Below, one piece after another: positions 24,301 through 59,208 of a DNA stretch of 59,208 bases (positions within the stretch are counted from its first letter, which is position 1; each line of letters begins with the position of its first letter). The stretch covers positions 1-59,208 of IMG/VR virus record IMGVR_UViG_3300028563_000024; one strand, 5' to 3'. The position numbers and the translations under genes were made by a program. The DNA is from a virus. The notes beneath the pieces are model-generated. The model was not told the DNA's origin, made no database searches, and saw nothing but the letters and a program-made list of their open reading frames with translations.

Positions 24301-24795
24301 CTAGGTTAGAGCGTGCCCAGCACCATTTGCTGAGTAAAAGAAAAAGTTTCCTACAGGCTTGTCAAAGGTGCGCTGGTACAGCCGCACCTTGCCTTCGGTG
24401 CGCTCGTTGGACAGAACACCAATAACAAGCGGCAGACCACTGTTGGCGGAGCACCACTTGGCAAAGCGCATCAAGGCGACAGCAGCGCCGCCACCCCTGT
24501 GCTCTGGCTTGACGTAGAGGAAGAGCTCTTCCCAGTGCGGTGCATCTGAATACCAGAATGAGGACATCATCATGTAGATGAGGCCCTTCAGAGACCCTGG
24601 TTCTCCAACCGCACCGAGCACCCCGCCTTCGCGGTTGAAGGCTTTGCGGAGCATGAGGCGGACTTTATCTTCCTTAAGCGGAAACAATCCGTTTTCGTTG
24701 TGAAGCTGGCGACACAGATCCATCACAGATTCTTCCTCGGCTGGATCTGAGACCAGCCGAACACCGCGAGGATAAGGGACTGGGGTTGTGCTCAA
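24301..24795 (-). CDS. GNAT family acetyltransferase
   Basis: This 164-residue protein fits the GNAT fold: a long N-terminal helix pair, strand LKGLIYMMMSSFW, strand LFLYVKPE, and the acetyl-CoA pyrophosphate loop R100-G-G-G-A-A105 followed by helix ALMRFAKWC. The substrate is unknown. Similar genes are frequent among phage structural clusters and may acetylate a host or virion protein. The start overlaps the previous gene's end by four bases. Confidence 0.82.
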   Translation of the reverse strand: MSTTPVPYPRGVRLVSDPAEEESVMDLCRQLHNENGLFPLKEDKVRLMLRKAFNREGGVLGAVGEPGSLKGLIYMMMSSFWYSDAPHWEELFLYVKPEHRGGGAAVALMRFAKWCSANSGLPLVIGVLSNERTEGKVRLYQRTFDKPVGNFFFYSANGAGHALT

Positions 24796-25135: not shown

Positions 25136-26260
25136 TTATTCCTTCACGGGGCCTGGAAGCCCAGCCAGCGTCTTCCTTAAAAGTTTGCGCTCATGCAGCA
25201 CCCAAGCATCCATGATCGCGTGAGCTTGTTCCAAGTCGGGGTGAACAGCAGTTCTCAGGTTCTCTGGCGGAACAACAATCTCACCGCCTGCAAGGTTGAC
25301 CCTGACAGGAACTTCGTCAGTATCTGGAAGCGCGCCACCATCAGCACGCATTTTCATAGCCTTAGGCTTGAGTGCTGAAGGAGAAGTTCCATAAGGCCCC
25401 ATCTTGAAGAGCTTCTGGAGGTTGGCTGCGCCTGCGATGGTGTTACCCTGACCACGCCCAGAGACGATATCGGCTGGAATGACATAAGAGCCAGAGGGCA
25501 CATGCGTCTTGTGGGCGTCTGTCCGCCCTGGTACTGCACTCAGAATTGGCCCTTTGGTCATTCCGCCAGTCAAACCCCGGTGCTCATTGCGAACCAGAGC
25601 CTTCTCAGCAAAGCCAGGCGTCAGGTGAGGGCTGTGTCCAACATTGAAGCCGCCTGTCGCCAAGTCTGGAACAACGCCTCCCTGAGCGTAGCCTAGGCTG
25701 TTGAGGCCCTTCGAGGCAGCTGCGCCCAGTGGGCCAAACTGGGGGAGCTGGCTTATACCCCCCTGAACGGCCGTTCCAAGCGGTCCTAATTGGGAAAGTA
25801 TGTTGCTGAAGGAGGCCCCTAACCCCCCTAATGGGCCCTGAGGCGTTGAAGGCGGTGGGGCGACCCCCATTGGAGACCCCGTCATCGGGCTAGGGGCGGG
25901 CGTAGGCGCGGTATTTTGGGGTACCCCCACCTGGCCCGCCCCAGGACCCGCTAAACCGCTCTGTGAGGCTCCTAGGGTCTGAGCCGCCCCTGGAACGCCA
26001 GGCATGACGCCGCTGGAGCCGTTGGAGCCATTTCCATTGACGACAGTAACCGGAACAGGCGCTGGGCTGGTTCCCGCACCCATTGGGGGGTTGATATCGT
26101 TGACTGGACCGCCTGGAGCCCGACCACGCCTTGCAGTAGCCTCTGCAATAGCTATAGCTTGCTCACGAGATTTCACGTGAGGACTACGCCCAATTTCATG
26201 GCTAAGCCGCCGAATATTTTCGGAGATAGCTTTTTGACTGGAGCCTTGGACTAATGGCAT
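25136..26260 (-). CDS. Structural-type protein with duplicated N-terminal motif, 374 residues
   Basis: Residues 1-45 (GSSQKAISENI, IGRSPHVKSREQA) form a short helical module seen at the start of many phage structural proteins. It is followed by a long Gly/Pro-rich linker and a C-terminal part with VPSGSYVIPADIVSGRG and ANLQKLF. The same N-terminal module occurs as a broken 41-residue gene at 26811-26936, on the other side of the homing endonuclease gene. The start lies inside the endonuclease 3' end. The function is unknown. Confidence 0.65.
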   Translation of the reverse strand: MPLVQGSSQKAISENIRRLSHEIGRSPHVKSREQAIAIAEATARRGRAPGGPVNDINPPMGAGTSPAPVPVTVVNGNGSNGSSGVMPGVPGAAQTLGASQSGLAGPGAGQVGVPQNTAPTPAPSPMTGSPMGVAPPPSTPQGPLGGLGASFSNILSQLGPLGTAVQGGISQLPQFGPLGAAASKGLNSLGYAQGGVVPDLATGGFNVGHSPHLTPGFAEKALVRNEHRGLTGGMTKGPILSAVPGRTDAHKTHVPSGSYVIPADIVSGRGQGNTIAGAANLQKLFKMGPYGTSPSALKPKAMKMRADGGALPDTDEVPVRVNLAGGEIVVPPENLRTAVHPDLEQAHAIMDAWVLHERKLLRKTLAGLPGPVKE

Positions 26261-26811
26261 AGTCCAACCTCAGCAAGAATTTGCTCATACGGTACAGGAA
26301 GAGTTTTTAGACAGGCCTCAATAGGTTCTATGTCTGAGTCTCTACGGGGGCCTTTTCTGTTTAACCACCTAAGCTGTTCAACTAGAAGTTCCATAGTTTG
26401 CAAATACTCTGGGTCAGACGACGAGGACCACTTCTGCGTTCTGACAGCGATCCACATCTGTGCAACTAGAACTTGCTCTCTTTTGATCTGAACCCAAGGC
26501 TCTATAGCGTCAAGAAATACAGCAGCATGCTCCCAAGCTGTGCCCCACCAGCGAAAAACTTTCCAGTTTTCTCTGAAGGGCTTCTCGTAGCTTTTGACCC
26601 TTCCGCCGCAAACCGACTGAACATAATTCAAAATGTCTAGATTTGTGGTTACGATAGACACACGAATATATGGAGCTTTTCCAGCTTTCGTGAAGTTTAC
26701 ACAACCTTCACCATCGAACAGACCTGCAATGTAAGCACGAACATCTTTAGGCGCTTTTGCAAATTCAGGCTTAATCGCGTAACGCGCCTTTGGGTGCATG
26801 AACGTTTTCAT
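26251..26811 (-). CDS. LAGLIDADG family homing endonuclease
   Basis: Residues 26-36, AYIAGLFDGEG, match the LAGLIDADG helix and catalytic acidic pair. A typical strand (IRVSIVTTNLDILNYVQ) and VCGGRV follow. At 186 residues it has one clear motif and would act as a dimer. It is a free-standing gene, not in a recognisable intron, and looks more AT-rich than its neighbours, which suggests transfer. Its start shares an A with the stop of the 41-residue fragment (TAATG) and its end overlaps the start of the intact gene. It therefore lies exactly between two copies of the same gene start. Confidence 0.85.
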   Translation of the reverse strand: MKTFMHPKARYAIKPEFAKAPKDVRAYIAGLFDGEGCVNFTKAGKAPYIRVSIVTTNLDILNYVQSVCGGRVKSYEKPFRENWKVFRWWGTAWEHAAVFLDAIEPWVQIKREQVLVAQMWIAVRTQKWSSSSDPEYLQTMELLVEQLRWLNRKGPRRDSDIEPIEACLKTLPVPYEQILAEVGLCH

Positions 26812-37211: not shown

Positions 37212-37901
37212 TCAGTTTCTGAAATACCCGGACAAGCCGCAGCTGATGTATAGAGGGCTCGGCTCAGTCTGCTTGTTTGCTCTGTTGTAAGCCTCGTCCT
37301 TGTCCGCCTTACGCTGCGCCTCAAGCGCTGGAGCATAAATCCTAGACAAGCGGTGCGCTAGGTCAGCCACGTAGGCATTAAGCCACCAATATGGGACCGC
37401 AGCCTGACCGCCATTGCGAAGGTTGGCGTCCTCTAGTTGTGTGTAGACGTAGTAGGACATCAGATATGTGGTGTTGTCGTCAGGCACCGGCCAGAGCGTG
37501 ATGGTTGGGGACATGGCACGGTTGTACCAGAACGAAGTCGGAAAGCCCTGCATTGTAGGGTTCGCCAGCGATGCATAATCCGTTCTGGAGAACGGTAGGA
37601 TGAGGCGGTTCTGACCGCTCTCGCCGTTGTTGGGACTGACATAAACATCAAGGACTGAAAGCGTGTTGCTCGGAATGCCGTAAGTGGGGGAACCCGCCGT
37701 CAGAGGCTGTTGCACGAGCTCAACTGTCCACCACATTGGTGCATCAACCGACCAATCACTTTGTAACAGGTTCGCCTCAAAGTAAGAGTCGTTCATATGC
37801 TGCTGAGTAAGCTCAGTTCTACGAACGCCACACCTAGCAAAAGCGTTAAGTGTCAACTCCCCTATTGGGGGATTGAACTTATAAGAGTCGCTAGTGCTCA
37901 C
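37212..37901 (-). CDS. Second adaptor-like protein, 5' end recoded after HNH gene
   Basis: This 229-residue protein resembles podovirus adaptor or connector proteins: N-terminal helix LTLNAFARCGVRRTEL, then LLQSDWSVDAPMWW, a VLDVYVSP strand region and a helical end. GTG 37901 is chosen because it gives VSTSDSYKFN, matching MATSDSYGFA of the fragment at 38391-38510. The first 35 residues are duplicated in that fragment across the HNH gene, with many synonymous changes. The start overlaps the HNH stop region. Confidence 0.68.
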   Translation of the reverse strand: MSTSDSYKFNPPIGELTLNAFARCGVRRTELTQQHMNDSYFEANLLQSDWSVDAPMWWTVELVQQPLTAGSPTYGIPSNTLSVLDVYVSPNNGESGQNRLILPFSRTDYASLANPTMQGFPTSFWYNRAMSPTITLWPVPDDNTTYLMSYYVYTQLEDANLRNGGQAAVPYWWLNAYVADLAHRLSRIYAPALEAQRKADKDEAYNRANKQTEPSPLYISCGLSGYFRN

Positions 37902-38388
37902 AAGAGTTCTCTGCTTCTGATGTTGCCTTCGCTCTCTCAAGGCGAATTCGCGCCCAGCGCTTGGTTTGAGCCTCAGAGAGCTTTTTTCGTTCCGCCAGCG
38001 AGAACTTTTGACCTGTTCGGCTTTTGTTTCCGATACCGTTCTTATTGCCTTTCATGCTCTTACGAGCTTCATCTGTATGCTTGTAGCCCTTTGCGTAAGA
38101 ATTACCAATCAAAGCATTTTGAATTCTCTCAAGAGTTTCTGGTCTAGCCCAGAGCTCAGCCTCATTCTCCTCCCATGAAATTATCTTTACATTCCCGACC
38201 GCGTAAGGGCCTTCATCTCCAAAACGACCCATGCAATATTTGCCATTACCGAGTCCGCGCTCGTGCAAATGGCCAGACTTCTCCCAAATCTCAAACCACT
38301 CCTCGAAAGTTAGTAGGAATTCATGACCACGCCTAGTTGCGTTATCCTTGTGGTTACGGTATTTGCCACGCCATGCCTTCTTATCCAC
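37891..38388 (-). CDS. HNH-type homing endonuclease, 165 residues
   Basis: The middle (MGRFGDEGPYAVGNVKIISW then EENEAE) matches the GPY/NV pattern of free-standing phage HNH endonucleases. The C-terminal part repeats the K-G-x-x-S/T-x-E-x-R-K pattern (HTDEARKSMKGNKN, GQKFSLAERKKLSEAQ) of DNA-binding NUMOD-like modules. GTG 38388 is preferred because AAGGAG lies eight bases upstream; TTG 38394 is an alternative. Base use looks more AT-rich than that of its neighbours. It interrupts the start of the adaptor-like gene. Confidence 0.8.
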   Translation of the reverse strand: MDKKAWRGKYRNHKDNATRRGHEFLLTFEEWFEIWEKSGHLHERGLGNGKYCMGRFGDEGPYAVGNVKIISWEENEAELWARPETLERIQNALIGNSYAKGYKHTDEARKSMKGNKNGIGNKSRTGQKFSLAERKKLSEAQTKRWARIRLERAKATSEAENSCEH

Positions 38389-38390
38389 GC

Positions 38391-38510
38391 TCAAATCTCC
38401 TTAATATGCTGCGGCGTAAGCTCTGTCCTTCGAACCTGGCAGCGCGCAAATGCATTCAACGCCAATGAACCGATTGGCGGAGCAAAGCCATAGGAGTCGG
38501 AAGTTGCCAT
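38391..38510 (-). pseudogene. 5' fragment of the adaptor-like gene, 39 residues
   Basis: ATG 38510 shares an A with the previous stop (TAATG). The product starts MATSDSYGFAPP and contains LALNAFARCQVRRTEL, about 75 percent identical by eye to the start of the intact gene at 37901, but the DNA differs at many third codon positions. Identity is highest at the end, where both copies read GCAGCATAT. Then this copy switches to TAAGGAG, which is the ribosome binding site of the HNH gene, and stops. It appears to be the pre-insertion 5' end. Confidence 0.7.
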
Positions 38511-42401: not shown

Positions 42402-43016
42402 TTAGACCCCCAACAGTGCTTTGTATTGCTGATTGTTGAACGCCACGATCACGTTGTTGTATGGCGTGGTGAGGTCGGTGCCGTTTGCACCGGGTGGTGA
42501 CGTAATGACGTTGACCACCTTGAAAGGCAGCGTGACAGTAGTCGTTGGTGTGCTGAGCGACATGGTCGAAATGCCGGTCGTGGTGTTGCCAAGCGGCGTG
42601 GCCACAATGTCGGCGGTGCGGCCAATCGAGGTCTGAGTGATGGCAGAGCCGATACCGGCTTGCACCTTCCACTGACTGTTCGGGTCGTCAACCACAAAGG
42701 CGTTGACGTCTCCGGTAGCGTCCGAGCCGGGCCAGTAGTTGCTCCAGACGTGCTTTTTCTGCGACGTGGAGTTGTAGGAGCATCCAATGAAGATGCCGAC
42801 AAGGATCTGTGTGGCGGTTGAGCCATCACCGTTCGCCCACTGCTCGATATAGCCAGTGGGGCCGGAAACGTTCATGCGCACCGCGTCTCCGTAGAAGATC
42901 GCGGTGGCGTAACCTGATGCAATTCGGTAAGGGGTGTTGTGGTTCTCAGCAAAGTTCGGAGGCCCAGAGGCCGTTCCGATCTGCGAGAAGCCAAACGGAC
43001 CTTGTACGTTGGCCAT
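42402..43016 (-). CDS. Capsid-associated structural protein, 204 residues
   Basis: The product starts MANVQGPFGFSQIGTASG and has beta-rich, low-charge sequence (YRIASGYATAIFYGDAVRM). This type of gene often lies directly upstream of the major capsid gene and encodes a decoration or stabilising protein. It is the first gene of the capsid transcript, after a 292-base structured leader. The decoration role is inferred from position. Confidence 0.65.
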   Translation of the reverse strand: MANVQGPFGFSQIGTASGPPNFAENHNTPYRIASGYATAIFYGDAVRMNVSGPTGYIEQWANGDGSTATQILVGIFIGCSYNSTSQKKHVWSNYWPGSDATGDVNAFVVDDPNSQWKVQAGIGSAITQTSIGRTADIVATPLGNTTTGISTMSLSTPTTTVTLPFKVVNVITSPPGANGTDLTTPYNNVIVAFNNQQYKALLGV

Positions 43017-43137
43017 GGCTTATGCGGTTCCAGGTTAGGGAAACTGCGAACAAGCCAGAAGCTTGTGAACAGCAACCCAGGAAGTTTCAGTGCTACCGCA
43101 GTACGCAGCAGCGGTTTGAGCTGGAAGCGCCTTAAAG

Positions 43138-43151
43138 GCCCGGACACGGGC
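43138..43151. terminator. Possible weak terminator hairpin downstream of the Mom-like gene
   Basis: GCCCG and CGGGC form a perfect 5-bp stem with a 4-base loop. On the minus strand it is followed by CTTTAAGG, a weak T-containing tail. It could separate the Mom-like transcript from the capsid genes, but it would also attenuate the candidate promoter upstream. Confidence 0.3.
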
Positions 43152-43245
43152 TAGGAGCTAGTCCTTGATTCTCTTTCTTCTGAGAACCCTTCAGTAGCTA
43201 CGGTCGCGCGGCTACCGGAAAAATCAGAAACACTCTAAGGCAAAT

Positions 43246-43275
43246 TCTATAAGGGTAATGGCGGTCTGAAGGCAA
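43246..43275 (-). promoter_or_regulatory. Candidate promoter for the capsid operon
   Basis: On the minus strand TTGCCT (43275-43270) and TATAGA (43251-43246) are separated by 18 bases. It points toward the capsid genes and lies in the largest gap of the late region. This is a pattern match only. Confidence 0.4.
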
Positions 43276-43308
43276 GCGGTAAAATGCAGCAGTTAAAACT
43301 TTTACGCA

Positions 43309-43926
43309 TCAACAAGACAAAAGCGACGTGTCAGAACACCTAGAAGCGACTTCTAGGGATTCTATCGGCAGGTCGTCCTGTCCAGTCTTACGAGCAAACA
43401 CTAGTTTGGGGCGAAGGTTCTTTACGTCCCACACACGTTTGCCGCCCCAACTATCGGTACCAACGCCGCCTACACGTTTGCAAGTGAAGCCTCTAGTCAA
43501 GCCAACCTCAACCCAACCGTCGCGACGATAAAGTTCGCCTGTTCGTGGCAACTCAACCAAAGTTTCGAACCCCGCGACCAAAGACCCGTAACAACGAGGC
43601 CAATCGCGTAAAACAAAGCCACGCCAAACTTTGACAACTTTCGATGCAAAATTACGAAAGGGGTACTCGCCATTCTGCTTCTCTATATGGAAGAAGGTGT
43701 TATTAACCAAGTTATTAAGCGGAACTTCTCTACCAAAGAAATCAGTTCTGCCTGGTAGAAAACGAGTAGCTGACCCTGCAACCGTAACCCCGTAACAGAC
43801 TTGATCCACAAAGACTTTGTAAATTAACTGACGCCCAACGAAGCCCTTTGGCTTCGAGTAATGCGCATACATCCAACACTGGAGTTGAGAATCGGACTTA
43901 GTGACAAGGACAAGGTCAATTTTCAT
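43309..43926 (-). CDS. Mom-like adenine modification protein, 205 residues
   Basis: CWMYAHYSKPKGFVGRQLIY, NNLVNNTFFHIEK, then ELPRTGELYRRDGWVEVGL, FTCKRVGGVGTDSW and GKRVWDVKNLRPKLVF fit the family of the Mu Mom enzyme. Mom converts adenine in DNA to a methylcarbamoyl-type modified base and protects against restriction enzymes. ATG 43926 is chosen over TTG 43938; no strong ribosome binding site precedes it. The gene appears AT-richer than its neighbours and lies between scaffold-side genes and capsid genes, suggesting acquisition. Whether it is active is not known. Confidence 0.78.
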   Translation of the reverse strand: MKIDLVLVTKSDSQLQCWMYAHYSKPKGFVGRQLIYKVFVDQVCYGVTVAGSATRFLPGRTDFFGREVPLNNLVNNTFFHIEKQNGEYPFRNFASKVVKVWRGFVLRDWPRCYGSLVAGFETLVELPRTGELYRRDGWVEVGLTRGFTCKRVGGVGTDSWGGKRVWDVKNLRPKLVFARKTGQDDLPIESLEVASRCSDTSLLSC

Positions 43927-43949
43927 GAGACTTGGCAAAACATACGCTT

Positions 43950-44150
43950 TTACACAGCGTTACGTTCTAATCTCTTTTTGAATTGCGCTAGTGTCTCATT
44001 CGGAACATCTGACGCCACACAGTCCTTGCAAGGTTTGACTCGGAAGGGCCACTTGGTCTTGAGACAACCCTTCCGACAGGCAAAGAACAGGAACCGACCA
44101 CGCCTGATGCCAGGATTGATCTTCTCAAGAAAGAAATGAAGGTCAGCCAC
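43950..44150 (-). CDS. Small Cys-rich protein upstream of the Mom-like gene, 66 residues
   Basis: FFACRKGC and KPCKDC give a C-x3-C and C-x2-C pair suited to one zinc ion, within a basic sequence. It directly precedes the Mom-like gene, as the zinc-finger translational activator Com precedes mom in phage Mu. There is no clear sequence match to Com, so the analogy rests on position, size and Cys pairs. The start is GTG 44150 with a weak ribosome binding site. Confidence 0.55.
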   Translation of the reverse strand: MADLHFFLEKINPGIRRGRFLFFACRKGCLKTKWPFRVKPCKDCVASDVPNETLAQFKKRLERNAV

Positions 44151-44160
44151 GCAGCGGTAT

Positions 44161-44421
44161 TCAGGCTTGCTTCTCTAAGGTGAAGACCGTCTTGACCTTA
44201 GGGCCTTCCTCAGCCAACACATCCGCAATGATTGCCTTGAAGTAGGCCGCCACTGTTACGCCGCTGGCATTGGCTATTGCGAAGAGCAAGTCACGCTCTG
44301 CTCGTGTGACCCATGTCGTAATACCAGCTTTGTCTTGATGGTACTCAGAATATTCAGAGGCGCGGATAACTGTGCCATCTAAGGCTAGAACTGAAGCTGT
44401 AGGGCGCTTAGGTCGAGACAT
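44161..44421 (-). CDS. Possible ribbon-helix-helix-like protein, 86 residues
   Basis: A strand-like ITTWVTRAERDLLFAI is followed by a helix pair (ANASGVTVAAYFKAIIADVL), a layout of small phage DNA-binding proteins of ribbon-helix-helix type. The N-terminus is basic (MSRPKRPTAS). If real, it could regulate the adjacent Mom-like pair. Confidence in the fold is low. Confidence 0.5.
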   Translation of the reverse strand: MSRPKRPTASVLALDGTVIRASEYSEYHQDKAGITTWVTRAERDLLFAIANASGVTVAAYFKAIIADVLAEEGPKVKTVFTLEKQA

Positions 44422-44441
44422 CTTTCCCTCCCCTGACCAGA

Positions 44442-45065
44442 TTACTCCTCAACCACCTGAACAGCCCGCACATACTCTTTCGTGATTCGGGGCTCGACGC
44501 CTTGGTGCTGACGGGTCAGCGTGTCCTTGGGCGTCATGCCCAGGCGCTGCTCAGCCTCACGCATCTGCGTCTTAGCAAGCATACGCTGTTCGCGACGAGC
44601 CTCGCCAGTCAACTCGACAGGACGCTCCATAAGGATAAGTCCGCCCTTGATGATGTGCGGCTGGCTGTAGCCAGGCGGAACCCAAGTCGGGTGGCGCTTC
44701 GGATTGACCGGCTCCCAACCTTGCTCACGCATACTGGCAAGATAGAAGGGATCTTCCTGACCATTGATCGAGAACCGCTTCCACTCGTAGGAACTACCCT
44801 CCGGAATCTCTTCAAGCGGGACGTAGAACATGTCCTGATTGACTTCGGACTTGCGGCGGCGGGTGCGGCGCGGCTCGCCATGCACAGACTCATGGAGAGG
44901 CTCCCGGGCGTCGGTCTTGGCAGCACGGAGAGCAGGGCGCTCGGCGACCTGAGCGGTTTCAATGCCGCCCGTACCGCCGTCCGGCTCAATAGCCTCAATT
45001 TCAGGCTCCGGAGTAGGAACGGGCTTAAGGCGACGGCGGAGCGGGGCTTGAGTTCCAACGGGCAT
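44442..45065 (-). CDS. Structural-type protein with duplicated N-terminus, 207 residues
   Basis: The N-terminal 24 residues (GTQAPLRRRLKPVPTPEPE) are nearly the same as those of the next gene upstream, at 45424. A Pro/Glu-rich linker follows, then a folded C-terminal half (MFYVPLEEIPEGSSYEWKR, QGWEPVNPKRHPTW). Such proteins occur near the scaffold genes of related phages. AGGACTGAAACTC precedes ATG 45065. The function is unknown. Confidence 0.6.
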   Translation of the reverse strand: MPVGTQAPLRRRLKPVPTPEPEIEAIEPDGGTGGIETAQVAERPALRAAKTDAREPLHESVHGEPRRTRRRKSEVNQDMFYVPLEEIPEGSSYEWKRFSINGQEDPFYLASMREQGWEPVNPKRHPTWVPPGYSQPHIIKGGLILMERPVELTGEARREQRMLAKTQMREAEQRLGMTPKDTLTRQHQGVEPRITKEYVRAVQVVEE

Positions 45066-45590: not shown

Positions 45591-46699
45591 TAGTGCGTCA
45601 TCCGACCCAGCTTACCCTCAGCCTCCAGCTCGACAAGGTTCCGAGCATACTGCGCAAAGGCTTGCTGTGGCGTGAGCTGGGGAAAGGACATCTTGGCAGC
45701 GTCCTGCTGATCCTTGGTCAAGGACACAGTGCGGGTCGTACGCGGAACGCCCGTTGCAGAGGGCGGGTCGCGGGTGACGGGAGCGGACGGCTGAGCCAGC
45801 CGCTTCGGCGCGGGCTTCGGCTTCGGGGCTACTTCCTCTTCGCCAGCCTCAACCGTCTCAGCAGCAAGCGAGGTTGGCTGGCGATAACCCGCCGTCTCCT
45901 CAATAATGCGGAAGTAATCCGGCGAGTTGGGCTCAGCGCCTTCAGCCAGAGCAGCGTAATGCCCCTTCATCATCTTGGCATTGGATGTGGTATTACCGCC
46001 TACATTGGCGGGGACACAGTCAGGATGCGCCCTCAGCCAGGCCTGAGCAGCTGGAGCAAAGCTGGAGACATACTGCTCAAAGGGCGTGAGATGAGTTTGA
46101 GGCGCTTCAACGCGGCCCTCGGTGGTTGGCTTACGGGCACCGCTTTCATACGCTGCCTTGGCCGTCTCCAGGCGATCTAGAGCCGATGCAGCCTTGGAGA
46201 CCTTGGTCTGGGCTTGAGCGGCCTTCTTGAACTCACCAGCCTCCAAGGCGCGTTCGAGTTCTTCCTCAGCCGAGGCCAGCTCACGGGTGGCGTTATCAAC
46301 ACCGGTGGTGATAAGGGCAAGCTCGGTGTTCTCAGCGGACTCGCGGGCCTGCTTTGCCTCCTGCTCGCGCTGCTGAGCGAGTTGGGTAGCGTTGTCAGCG
46401 CGGCGGCGCTCAGCAAGGGCTGTAGCCTCAGCAGCGGAGAGCGAGGCCTTCTGATTCTCGACAGTCTTCTGGAGCGCGACGAGGACTTCATCCGCCTGCT
46501 TAGCGGGAGCCTGCTCACTCAACCTGACGCGGGGAAGAACCTTCGGCTTAGGCTCTGGCTTGGCGGGTTCGCCATCTTCGCCGAGCTCTACGTCGGCAGC
46601 AGCTGCGATTTCTGCATCTGTGGTTGCCTGGTCTTTCGGAAGCTCAACCGTGACGACGCTGTCGTCCGTAACTTCGACGGTTGCGTTAGGGCCTGCCAT
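45590..46699 (-). CDS. Scaffolding-type protein, 369 residues
   Basis: An acidic N-terminus, a Pro/Lys linker, a long uninterrupted coiled coil (residues about 70-180, for example SAAEATALAERRRADNATQL) and a small basic C-terminal segment (FAQYARNLVELEAEGKLG) are the usual features of a head scaffolding protein. AGGAGAGCAATTAA precedes ATG 46699. It lies upstream of the capsid genes, as expected. Scaffolds guide capsid assembly and leave before maturation. Confidence 0.75.
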   Translation of the reverse strand: MAGPNATVEVTDDSVVTVELPKDQATTDAEIAAAADVELGEDGEPAKPEPKPKVLPRVRLSEQAPAKQADEVLVALQKTVENQKASLSAAEATALAERRRADNATQLAQQREQEAKQARESAENTELALITTGVDNATRELASAEEELERALEAGEFKKAAQAQTKVSKAASALDRLETAKAAYESGARKPTTEGRVEAPQTHLTPFEQYVSSFAPAAQAWLRAHPDCVPANVGGNTTSNAKMMKGHYAALAEGAEPNSPDYFRIIEETAGYRQPTSLAAETVEAGEEEVAPKPKPAPKRLAQPSAPVTRDPPSATGVPRTTRTVSLTKDQQDAAKMSFPQLTPQQAFAQYARNLVELEAEGKLGRMTH

Positions 46700-47237
46700 T
46701 TAATTGCTCTCCTGATTTAGCCAATCTTACCTGGGAATAGCATAAACGTAAATGCGTTCGGCAATACGGATGGTCGTCAAGGCGCTTATTGCTGCAAAAC
46801 TTAAAATCAGGCGTACCGACATCGCCAATTGGGTAGCGGCAATCGTCTACTTTCAAGAGCAGAACCTTGGGCAATCTGGCTTTTCCTAGAGCATCAACAA
46901 ATTCAGCCTGGTCAGCAGGAGCGTTGAATGCAAGTGCCTTAGACCTTGGGAATTCTGGATCATCTGGAATATCTGTCGTAGGGCTAAGGCGAACTCTGGG
47001 GAGAGATGAGGTTGGGCGAAGCTCCGCCTTGCGCAACACAGCGACAACTTCCGGCTTAGGCTTGACCTGGACATTGACTGGGCGATCTCTGTCTGAAAGG
47101 CCTTCGCGGTGCAACCGGCCAATGATGGCGTTGCGCGTGCGGCCTAGCTTCATGCCAATCGTCTTAGGGCTGTAGCCCTTGGACCAGAGATCAAACACGA
47201 ATTTGAACTCGCTATCCGTCCACGATTTAGAAGGCAT
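46686..47237 (-). CDS. GcrA family cell-cycle regulator homologue, 183 residues
   Basis: The N-terminal KSWTDSEFKFVFDLWSKG and TRNAIIGRLHREGL match the GcrA DNA-binding helix-turn-helix. The C-terminal DDCRYPIGDVGTPDF then FCSNK and YCRTH match the Cys-containing end of the family. In Caulobacter, GcrA works with the primary sigma factor at methylated promoters. A phage copy could redirect host transcription or activate late genes. ATG 47237 shares an A with the previous stop (TAATG). This gene is the main clue to an alphaproteobacterial host. Confidence 0.88.
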   Translation of the reverse strand: MPSKSWTDSEFKFVFDLWSKGYSPKTIGMKLGRTRNAIIGRLHREGLSDRDRPVNVQVKPKPEVVAVLRKAELRPTSSLPRVRLSPTTDIPDDPEFPRSKALAFNAPADQAEFVDALGKARLPKVLLLKVDDCRYPIGDVGTPDFKFCSNKRLDDHPYCRTHLRLCYSQVRLAKSGEQLNGRP

Positions 47238-47494
47238 TACGAAGAAGCCTTTCGCAGTTTTTGCAAAGCAGCCCAATCGAACTTGCTGGGAAGTGTTAGC
47301 ATAGACTCATGCGCCCAAATCTGTTTGTAGTCACAGTGCAGACAGATCCAGCCGTCCTTAGTCGCAACCAAAGACTTATCACCAGCGTGATCGTTCCCGC
47401 ACGTAAATGAATGAACCGCATCTGCCTGCTGCCAACGGTTAAGCGCGTCAACTTGCGCCACGCTCCATGGAGCGACAACCCAACCGTTTGTCAA
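47237..47494 (-). CDS. Small zinc-ribbon-like protein, 85 residues
   Basis: HSFTCGNDHAGD and WICLHCDYKQ give Cys/His and C-x2-C groups that could bind zinc. It begins WVVAPWSVAQVDALNRWQ, a pattern I associate with small unknown proteins of alphaproteobacterial phages. The TTG start overlaps the GroES-like stop (TTGA). It is coupled to the GcrA gene downstream. Confidence 0.6.
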   Translation of the reverse strand: MTNGWVVAPWSVAQVDALNRWQQADAVHSFTCGNDHAGDKSLVATKDGWICLHCDYKQIWAHESMLTLPSKFDWAALQKLRKASS

Positions 47495-56412: not shown

Positions 56413-56871
56413 TTATCGAGCAGCTTGAAGGCTCTGATAATACCAGCAGTGAAGAAAACCAAGCCCCAGCGCCCAATCAAGCTCACCACGTTGCTTCATC
56501 ATCCAAAGCCACAATGCGCGACCAGACCTTCCATTCCCATCTGTAAATGGATGAAGTGTTTCGTACCACTCGTGAATTTCGTATGGTTGCTGACCAGACA
56601 CAACTTCGGACCGCTCCAGTAAATTTTCTAACTGTACCTCAATCTCTGGCCCACCTAGAGGCGCAATATGCTCTCCAACACGAACGTTGAGGCCCGCATT
56701 ACGACGCAACACAGCACCAGGCTGAACCAACTTAACGAAGCGTTCCAAATCACCTAGGCGAACAACCGCAAGGCTTAACAACCAATCGTGTGCCATAAGT
56801 TCATCAGGAGTCGGCAGGCGACGAATTCCCTCAATCTTATTGCTCTCAACGATAAAGCTCGGGGCTATCAT
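56413..56871 (-). CDS. Fic family protein (putative AMP transferase), 152 residues
   Basis: H107-P-F-T-D-G-N-G-R-S-G-R118 is the full Fic active motif HPFxxGNGRxxR, preceded by the flap IHEWYET. The N-terminal S10-N-K-I-E14-G15 matches the inhibitory S/T-x3-E-G/N motif, whose Glu blocks ATP binding. Fic enzymes usually transfer AMP to a hydroxyl group on a target protein. The protein is shorter than most bacterial Fic proteins but keeps both motifs. The target is unknown; it may modify a host protein during infection. Confidence 0.88.
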   Translation of the reverse strand: MIAPSFIVESNKIEGIRRLPTPDELMAHDWLLSLAVVRLGDLERFVKLVQPGAVLRRNAGLNVRVGEHIAPLGGPEIEVQLENLLERSEVVSGQQPYEIHEWYETLHPFTDGNGRSGRALWLWMMKQRGELDWALGLGFLHCWYYQSLQAAR

Positions 56872-58137: not shown

Positions 58138-59208
58138 TCAGGTTCTGACCTCTGGAATCTTGAACTCATCTTTAGACATACCCCACATCCAAGCTTGCGC
58201 TTCGAGCGCGGTCTGCATCTCCGGTGGAACTGGAACGGCAAACTCTCTGCCTGTTCCGCATTGGACGCGCATGAACTTCTCACGACCAATATCTGGCAGC
58301 TCAACCTCTACAAGCTCGCCGATTTCCGGGTCGTTGTCCTTGTTGATCGTCTTAGCCTTCAATTCAGTCAGGATACGCGCCCAACCTAGGATTTCACAAG
58401 CGGCGCGGCGCTGCTCAATGTTTGCCCAGGTCAGCGCGGCCTTAGGCGTCAGTTTAGTGCGGTCAGCGGTCCACTCGTCTGGAATTCTGGTTCCGTGCCA
58501 GGACGAAACGCCCCAGCCATCTGAATACTCAACCGCTTTGCCAAATTCACTATGAAGCCGCTTCTCAGCATCGAACTTGACTTTTCGCGGACGATCACTG
58601 ACAAAGCAAATTCCGTCCCAAGGAGCCCACCAACCCACACTTTGGGAAAGACGGCCCCACTCCAAAAGAAGGGCAATATCTTCAGCTTTGTACTTGACAC
58701 CAATTTCATGTCCGAACAGATAGAATGCTTCCCAGGAACACCACTGACCAGCGCCCCAACGGTTTTGTAAAAAATAAGGCTGGAGTTTGCCGAGCTGGCT
58801 GTAGAGCTGGCTGTCGAGCTGGCTGTCGAGCTGGCTGTAGAGCTGGCTGCCGAGCTGGCTGTAGAGCTGGCTGTCGAGCTGGCTGTCGAGCTGGCTGTAG
58901 AGCTGGCTGCGGAGCTGGCTGTAGAGCTGGCTGTAGAGCTGGCTGTCGAGCTGGCTGTAGAGCTGGCTGTCGAGCTGGCTGTCGAGCTGGCTGTAGAGCT
59001 GGCTGCTGAGCTGGCTGTAGAGCTGGCTGTAGAGCTGGCTGTAGAGCTGGCTGTCGAGCTGGCTGTCGAGCTGGCTGTAGAGCTGGCTGCGGAGCTGGCT
59101 GTCGAGCTGGCTGTAGAGCTGGCTGCGGAGCTGGCTGTCGAGCTGGCTGCGGAGCTGGCTGCGGAGCTGGCTGTAGAGCTGGCTGTAGAGCTGGCTGTTG
59201 AGCTGGCT
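58138..59208 (-). CDS. DUF6745-like protein with 35 tetrapeptide repeats, 5' end outside window
   Basis: The minus-strand frame is open from the TGA at 58138 to the right edge. The C-terminal 216 residues (NRWGAGQWCSWEAFYLFGHE, RAACEILGWARILTEL, DPEIGELVEVELPDIG, CGTGREFAVPVPPE) fit the DUF6745 family of unknown function. Before this lie 35 exact-length repeats of SQLX, with X being Tyr, Asp, Arg, Gly, Ser or Asn. Related proteins often have QL/QV-rich repeats there. The start codon and any earlier domain are outside the window. Confidence 0.7.
   Translation of the reverse strand, partial: SQLNSQLYSQLYSQLRSQLRSQLDSQLRSQLYSQLDSQLRSQLYSQLDSQLDSQLYSQLYSQLYSQLSSQLYSQLDSQLDSQLYSQLDSQLYSQLYSQLRSQLYSQLDSQLDSQLYSQLGSQLYSQLDSQLDSQLYSQLGKLQPYFLQNRWGAGQWCSWEAFYLFGHEIGVKYKAEDIALLLEWGRLSQSVGWWAPWDGICFVSDRPRKVKFDAEKRLHSEFGKAVEYSDGWGVSSWHGTRIPDEWTADRTKLTPKAALTWANIEQRRAACEILGWARILTELKAKTINKDNDPEIGELVEVELPDIGREKFMRVQCGTGREFAVPVPPEMQTALEAQAWMWGMSKDEFKIPEVRT
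58789..59208. repeat. 12-base tandem repeat, 35 units, coding for (SQLX)n
   Basis: Each plus-strand unit is a variable triplet followed by an invariant GAGCTGGCT. The variable triplets are GTA (15), GTC (11), GCG (5), GCC (2), GCT (1) and GTT (1). Blocks of five units (GTA, GTC, GTC, GTA, GCC or GCG) recur three times as a 60-base higher unit. The array continues to the right edge, so its full length is unknown. Confidence 0.97.

Follow-up and report, generated by a model that had tools for sequence, protein, structure and literature searches.

The window analysed here is the whole of a 59,208-base virus record, and every ORF of the locus under study lies on its minus strand. The gene order on that strand is an 86-aa gene, a 66-aa ORF, a 205-aa ORF, a stretch of about 290 bases with no clear gene, and then the genes for a 204-aa head protein and a 308-aa capsid protein. 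The 205-aa ORF (43312..43926, minus strand) is assigned as a DruA/Mom-like GNAT gene from its reading frame, its homologues and an AF2 model; it starts with an ATG at 43926, an alternative TTG at 43938 would give a protein of 209 residues, and its conserved core comprises residues 1–180. Upstream of it, the basic 66-aa ORF (43950..44150, minus strand) has a GTG start located 10 nt past the stop of the 86-aa gene and is an orphan. The 86-aa gene itself (44161..44421, minus strand), the left neighbour of the insert described below, has a good ribosome site, a weak NikA-like match and homologues in related phages. A mini-frame encoding MFCQVS* (ATG TTT TGC CAA GTC TCA TGA; 43923..43943, minus strand) ends in a TGA that overlaps the start codon of the GNAT gene. 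A strong hairpin (43315..43385, minus strand; centre CTAGAAG-TCG-CTTCTAG) spans the C-terminal extension of the same gene, and it is followed by the untranslated stretch ahead of the 204-aa head gene (43017..43308, minus strand), part of which is common to the nearest relative, locus L020 (80% over 54 bp). Positions 42950–44500 gave no Rfam match, and a scan for consensus promoters found nothing. The first-pass annotation of this DNA had described the 205-aa ORF, the upstream basic ORF with four cysteines, the absent ribosome site and the mini-frame, all of which are present where it placed them; its interpretation of them, as a Mom-like modification gene under the control of a Com-like zinc partner, is considered below.

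None of the 80 loci fetched by means of the shared capsid gene has either ORF at this slot. Between the 207/86-aa genes and the 204-aa gene, close relatives carry other inserts, for example TnpB-like genes, or little, which gives the slot the appearance of an insertion hot spot in the capsid operon. The TnpB-like genes lie upstream of the head genes at L009:4722-5900, L011:5262-6023 and L012:4998-6086. The G+C content at the insert is about 0.48, compared with about 0.58 around it. Homologous proteins stop at residue ~180, and the last 24–25 residues of the window protein form an extension that reads into the hairpin, an element at the insert's end that is either terminator-like or a processing hairpin (−36.6 kcal/mol, z −4.39, equalled by 0 of 200 shuffles). 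The absence from the slot in relatives, the drop in G+C and the C-terminal run-on through the hairpin together give the insert the look of a recent moron, and the GNAT gene was most likely acquired recently, as a moron for DNA modification.

Direct profile and sequence searches with the 205-aa protein in Pfam, PHROGs, NCBIfam, PADLOC and the sequences of the PDB returned nothing useful, whereas Mu Mom was recognised immediately by PF25680 and phrog_1384 in the same kind of search. The first lead was a DUF4338 protein encoded on a Thiodictyon plasmid, 30% identical (E 0.01) and collinear over residues 15–146. The alignment of these two sequences, used as a pattern source, retrieved phage homologues at 70 and 62%, and further rounds extended the set to a wider phage family with members at 71–48% identity and a distant phage branch at ~24%. 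Weak tblastn matches in Serratia and Klebsiella jumbo phages were rejected as relatives, being DNA polymerase. Compared with these homologues, the conserved core of the window protein is fully intact. Codon-position differences from the homologous gene in L089 number 42, 37 and 120 at positions 1, 2 and 3 and are thus concentrated at the third position, a pattern of function kept; dN/dS values based on dS were unusable because synonymous sites are saturated.

The placement of this family relative to its two named kin was examined with profiles, profile–profile alignment and a tree. The window protein itself matches neither PF25680 (Mom) at E<=1 nor PF14236 (DruA/DUF4338) in Pfam. Within the window clade, the protein of L092 reaches 29 bits against a DruA cut-off of 27 and matches Mom with an E-value of 0.017 in Pfam, under the cut-off, and of 1.1e-5 in PHROGs, and that of L151 matches the Mom PHROG at 6.6e-7; matches of relatives to this PHROG range from 6.6e-7 to 1e-5. 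From the distant branch, L091 and L173 pass the Pfam cut-off for DruA. The PADLOC DruA model gave no match for the window protein or for those of L092, L091 and L086. Profile–profile alignment of the family with hhalign yields 98.4% (E 5.8e-15) with a DruA-like protein, compared with 4.5% with a small Mom alignment, and the family HMM finds matches in 29 of 398 Bacillota genomes (E down to 1e-20), of which those read are of DruA/DUF4338 type, apart from L092 itself. The tree resolves Mom, bacterial DruA and the window clade as separate, well-supported groups (100/100 for both DruA and the window clade), with Mom as the far group and the window protein outside the bacterial DruA clade; the branches are long, and the exact branching order is unsure.

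The 205-aa protein is therefore a phage member of the Mom/DruA superfamily with a predicted GNAT fold, which belongs to a phage clade of its own and is nearer to DruA than to Mom. DruA/DUF4338 is the namesake of the type I Druantia system and also occurs as stand-alone and mobile-element copies. With the bacterial proteins the window family has in common the motifs HY, G..[LI].Y, NN..F.I, N-x-[AG]-[ST] (within the broader N-x-x-[ST]), ET[LF]V[ED] and Y...W..[VL]G.T.G. The phage proteins differ in consisting of the GNAT domain alone, with 180–205 residues compared with 270–760 for most bacterial ones found.

A DruA-like fold encoded by phages is also described in the Phold paper (PMC12774648), for Synechococcus phage proteins with a TM-score of 0.73 at 12.7–17.1% identity. 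These were recognised by structure, and as far as that paper's account of them goes, no function or partner is proposed and the window clade is not mentioned.

An AF2 model built from the family alignment of six sequences (pLDDT 76.7, pTM 0.75) predicts a GNAT fold. Its best match among solved structures, at rank 1, is Mu Mom (8bv8; Z 13.8 over 158 residues, 3.5 Å), and its best named viral structural match is the Mom of a Salmonella phage. The structure 8bv8 is titled as the inactive mutant S124A of Mu Mom. In the GenBank frame of Mu Mom (231 residues), residue 124 is an isoleucine and the serine of the sequence R-N-S-E-S-R is residue 114, which suggests a numbering offset of 10 residues for S124. 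The window protein carries the N-x-x-[ST] motif as R91-N92-F93-A94-S95-K96 (43639..43656, minus strand). Judged by motif, S95, at position N+3, appears to be the counterpart of Mu Mom S124 in UniProt-type numbering; the low-probability hhalign alignment with Mom places the asparagine alike and the serine not. Position N+3 is S or T in relatives, and bacterial DruA reads N-L-A-S. Motif comparison also recovers the Mom-type H-Y pair as H22-Y23. The motifs E-L-x-R and [ST]-[FY]-[AS]-D, found across the Mom alignment, are not evident in the window clade, and the window protein has L-N-N-L and E-T-L-V-E at these places. Overall, it resembles Mu Mom in predicted fold, size, basic pI, late-gene location and the N-x-x-S motif, and differs from it in giving no profile match, in showing no evident form of the two motifs just named and in having no recognisable Com partner.

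GNAT folds mostly serve to acetylate proteins or small molecules, and ordinary acetyltransferases match the model with Z-scores of 12.7 and less, only ~1 Z below Mu Mom. An enzyme that acetylates a host protein or a small molecule would fit these values. We consider it improbable, given that the sequence kin of the protein are DruA and Mom rather than general GNATs, and that its relatives occur in the company of DNA modification genes, as detailed below.

The description of the gene as Mom-like thus holds for the predicted fold, for the best structural match and for the relatives that match the Mom PHROG; it does not extend to Mom proper. Based on the kinship nearer to DruA and the absence of a match to a Mom profile, methylcarbamoyl adenine is only one possible product of the enzyme.

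The 66-aa ORF invites comparison with Mu Com (PF10122), which it resembles in size, in its basic character (calculated pI 10.1), in having four cysteines (positions 25, 29, 41 and 44) and in its position upstream of a Mom-like gene. Together with the gene sizes and the Mom fold of the model, this arrangement is what would be expected of a true Mom–Com pair, in which a zinc-finger RNA-binding protein would switch on an adenine methylcarbamoylase. The resemblance is not borne out by sequence. The 66-aa protein gave no match to PF10122, a profile that Mu Com itself matches at 2.7e-9, and its cysteines are spaced CX3C-X11-CX2C, compared with CX2C-X16-CX2C in Mu Com; the four residues make zinc binding possible. 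Homologues were sought by tblastn in phages and plasmids, by pattern scans and by a degenerate DNA scan, with chance matches only. Among the relatives for which neighbours were listed, none has a Com-like gene directly upstream of the GNAT gene; L150 has a 78-aa ORF with a CxxC motif 80 bases upstream, unlike the 66-aa ORF in sequence. The codon score of the 66-aa ORF is close to zero, and another of the six frames scores better; the ORF may encode a real small protein.

In Mu, the Com protein binds a hairpin located beside an inhibitory structure (PMC6483171); the com and mom genes overlap by 50 bases. In the window, 23 bases separate the 66-aa and 205-aa ORFs, the RNA around the GNAT start is no more stable than shuffled sequences (z −1.2 and −0.9), and an alignment of the upstream non-coding sequence with five relatives revealed no convincing conserved RNA. 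Neither the Com-like partner nor the com-type translational control proposed in the first-pass annotation is upheld by these comparisons. With both the Mom and the Com profile unmatched and hhalign strongly on the side of DruA (98%, compared with 4.5% for Mom), a true Mom–Com pair is quite improbable.

No Shine-Dalgarno-like sequence lies ahead of the GNAT ATG (ccaagtctcATG) or of the GTG of the 66-aa ORF. The mini-frame shares its reading frame with the 66-aa ORF, beginning two codons past the TAA of that ORF, and its TGA overlaps the GNAT start as ATGA. An ATGA overlap with the upstream gene is likewise found in L087 and L089. Because the mini-frame continues the 66-aa frame and ends in this overlap, translational coupling probably accounts for the GNAT start better than control by Com. 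The mini-frame may be what is left of an older upstream gene that was once longer, a weak idea given that the shared frame has a one-in-three chance. The same features can be read as decay: poor translation signals, a stop ahead of the coupling frame and the C-terminal run-on into the hairpin would all suit a moron that has lost its function in this phage. Set against the core, intact in comparison with relatives, and the constraint by codon position, such decay is very improbable indeed.

The gene neighbourhoods of relatives bear most directly on function. In L091, L170 and L171, a distant relative overlaps a true Mom gene by 4 bases, and a second Mom gene then follows (PF25680, 7e-48 and 7e-44). 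In this operon, at L091:3938-6052 and also in L170 and L171, a DruA-like gene and two true Mom paralogues form an overlapping run of Mom-superfamily genes, three in all; the record gave no match to Com. At 19 distant-branch loci, several of them near-copies, the DruA-like GNAT gene is located directly beside a gene for a protein of 222–247 aa, upstream or downstream of it depending on the phage. This partner has invariant D-I-I, S-x-K and Q-M-K-G motifs and matches phrog_25220, a family of unknown function; it gave no Pfam or PDB match, and its structural model is poor (pLDDT 42). Pairs formed by overlap or adjacency occur in L155, L157, L158, L174, L183 and others. In the Synechococcus phage S-CAM22, the phrog_25220 homologue gp186 (L195:2450-3076) has a 4-base overlap with an N6/N4 DNA methyltransferase gene (PF01555, 3.5e-45), and in the Synechococcus phage S-RIM12 the homologue is followed by a DNA modification methylase.

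The phrog_25220 gene thus stands next to a DNA methyltransferase in some phages and next to a DruA/Mom-like GNAT in others, and this exchange of partners, together with the operon of Mom genes, suggests that the DruA/Mom-like GNATs are DNA-modifying enzymes. It is important to note that the phrog_25220 and Mom partners belong to the distant branch (~24% identity) and not to the window clade; the phrog_25220 partner was found neither in window-clade loci nor in the window. Contexts within the window clade vary: the gene of L086 lies between terminase small- and large-subunit-like genes, those of L087 and L089 follow a DNA polymerase-like gene, and in L152 a D12 adenine methyltransferase gene comes after the GNAT gene. 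The modification genes around relatives make DNA modification, as proposed in the first-pass annotation, the likely role, with methylcarbamoyl adenine as one possible product.

The phrog_25220 protein is a putative nuclease, as judged from its D-I-I...S-x-K motif and its context; with a DruA/Mom-like GNAT or a methyltransferase it would form a candidate phage module of the restriction–modification type. A related arrangement is described for jumbo phages, in which Mom domains are fused to REase-fold domains, a Mom-superfamily GNAT and a putative nuclease serving as modification plus restriction (PMC7824862). Those fusions comprise true Mom in one polypeptide, whereas the genes considered here are DruA-like, stand beside an unannotated phrog_25220 protein and do so in the distant branch only. 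By extension, DruA/Mom-like GNATs would be the modification half of compact restriction–modification-like pairs, with the window gene as a solitary protective member; we put this forward tentatively, as an idea with less than an even chance of being right.

A DruA-like protein could also act on DNA without modifying it, for instance in a phage-borne defence or exclusion system or in the service of a mobile element. The nearest kin of the window protein are DruA/DUF4338 proteins, named for the type I Druantia defence. In bacteria, DUF4338 genes are often multi-copy, as in the genome G377, or lie beside mobile elements, as does a copy that adjoins an integrase and transposases. The phage genes, by comparison, encode short single-domain GNATs without an extra N-terminal part, and their relatives pair with modification genes. 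According to the ORF list, the genes around the window copy are capsid genes, with no Druantia-like or transposase gene adjoining it. A non-modifying role is thus unlikely, though it deserves to be kept in view.

Taken together, the data are best explained by a phage enzyme of the DruA/Mom superfamily that modifies the phage's own DNA, was recently acquired as a moron and is probably translated by coupling, an explanation that we favour with modest confidence. We infer that the 205-aa enzyme would place an acyl-type group, taken from CoA or a comparable donor, on a base of the DNA of the phage itself. Modification late in infection would then allow the packaged DNA to resist restriction or another DNA-targeting defence. 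For translation, ribosomes that end on the upstream frame at the ATGA overlap would start on the GNAT gene.

DruA/DUF4338 proteins are widespread among bacteria and belong to a named defence system, and no report of a biochemical activity of DruA itself was found in the literature examined. If the tentative idea of restriction–modification-like pairs is true, DruA would gain a testable function as a DNA-modifying acyltransferase. Small phage homologues with a predicted Mom fold, which stand beside true Mom or exchange with a methyltransferase, make the proposition that DruA-type proteins modify DNA directly testable. The GNAT gene would also add a probable new way for uncultured phages, probably those infecting alphaproteobacteria, to evade restriction. 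As far as checked, the phage clade and its placement near DruA are new, as is the alternation with a DNA methyltransferase.

Several other features of the window were recorded, all on the minus strand. An ORF at 24301-24795, among structural genes, looks by eye like a second GNAT and has no evident sequence kinship to the 205-aa protein. Between structural genes lie a LAGLIDADG-like ORF at 26251-26811 (Pfam 5.5e-6) and, at 37891-38394, an ORF that matches NUMOD3 weakly, both likely homing endonucleases judging from these matches. A homologue of the cell-cycle regulator GcrA at 46686-47276 (Pfam 2.9e-25) points to an alphaproteobacterial host; it has no match in the loci fetched by the capsid gene. 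An ORF at 56413-56871 contains a Fic-type motif, HPFTDGNGRSGR. Finally, at the end of the record (58706-59208), short tandem repeats reading SQLYSQLDSQL... are in frame with a downstream protein.
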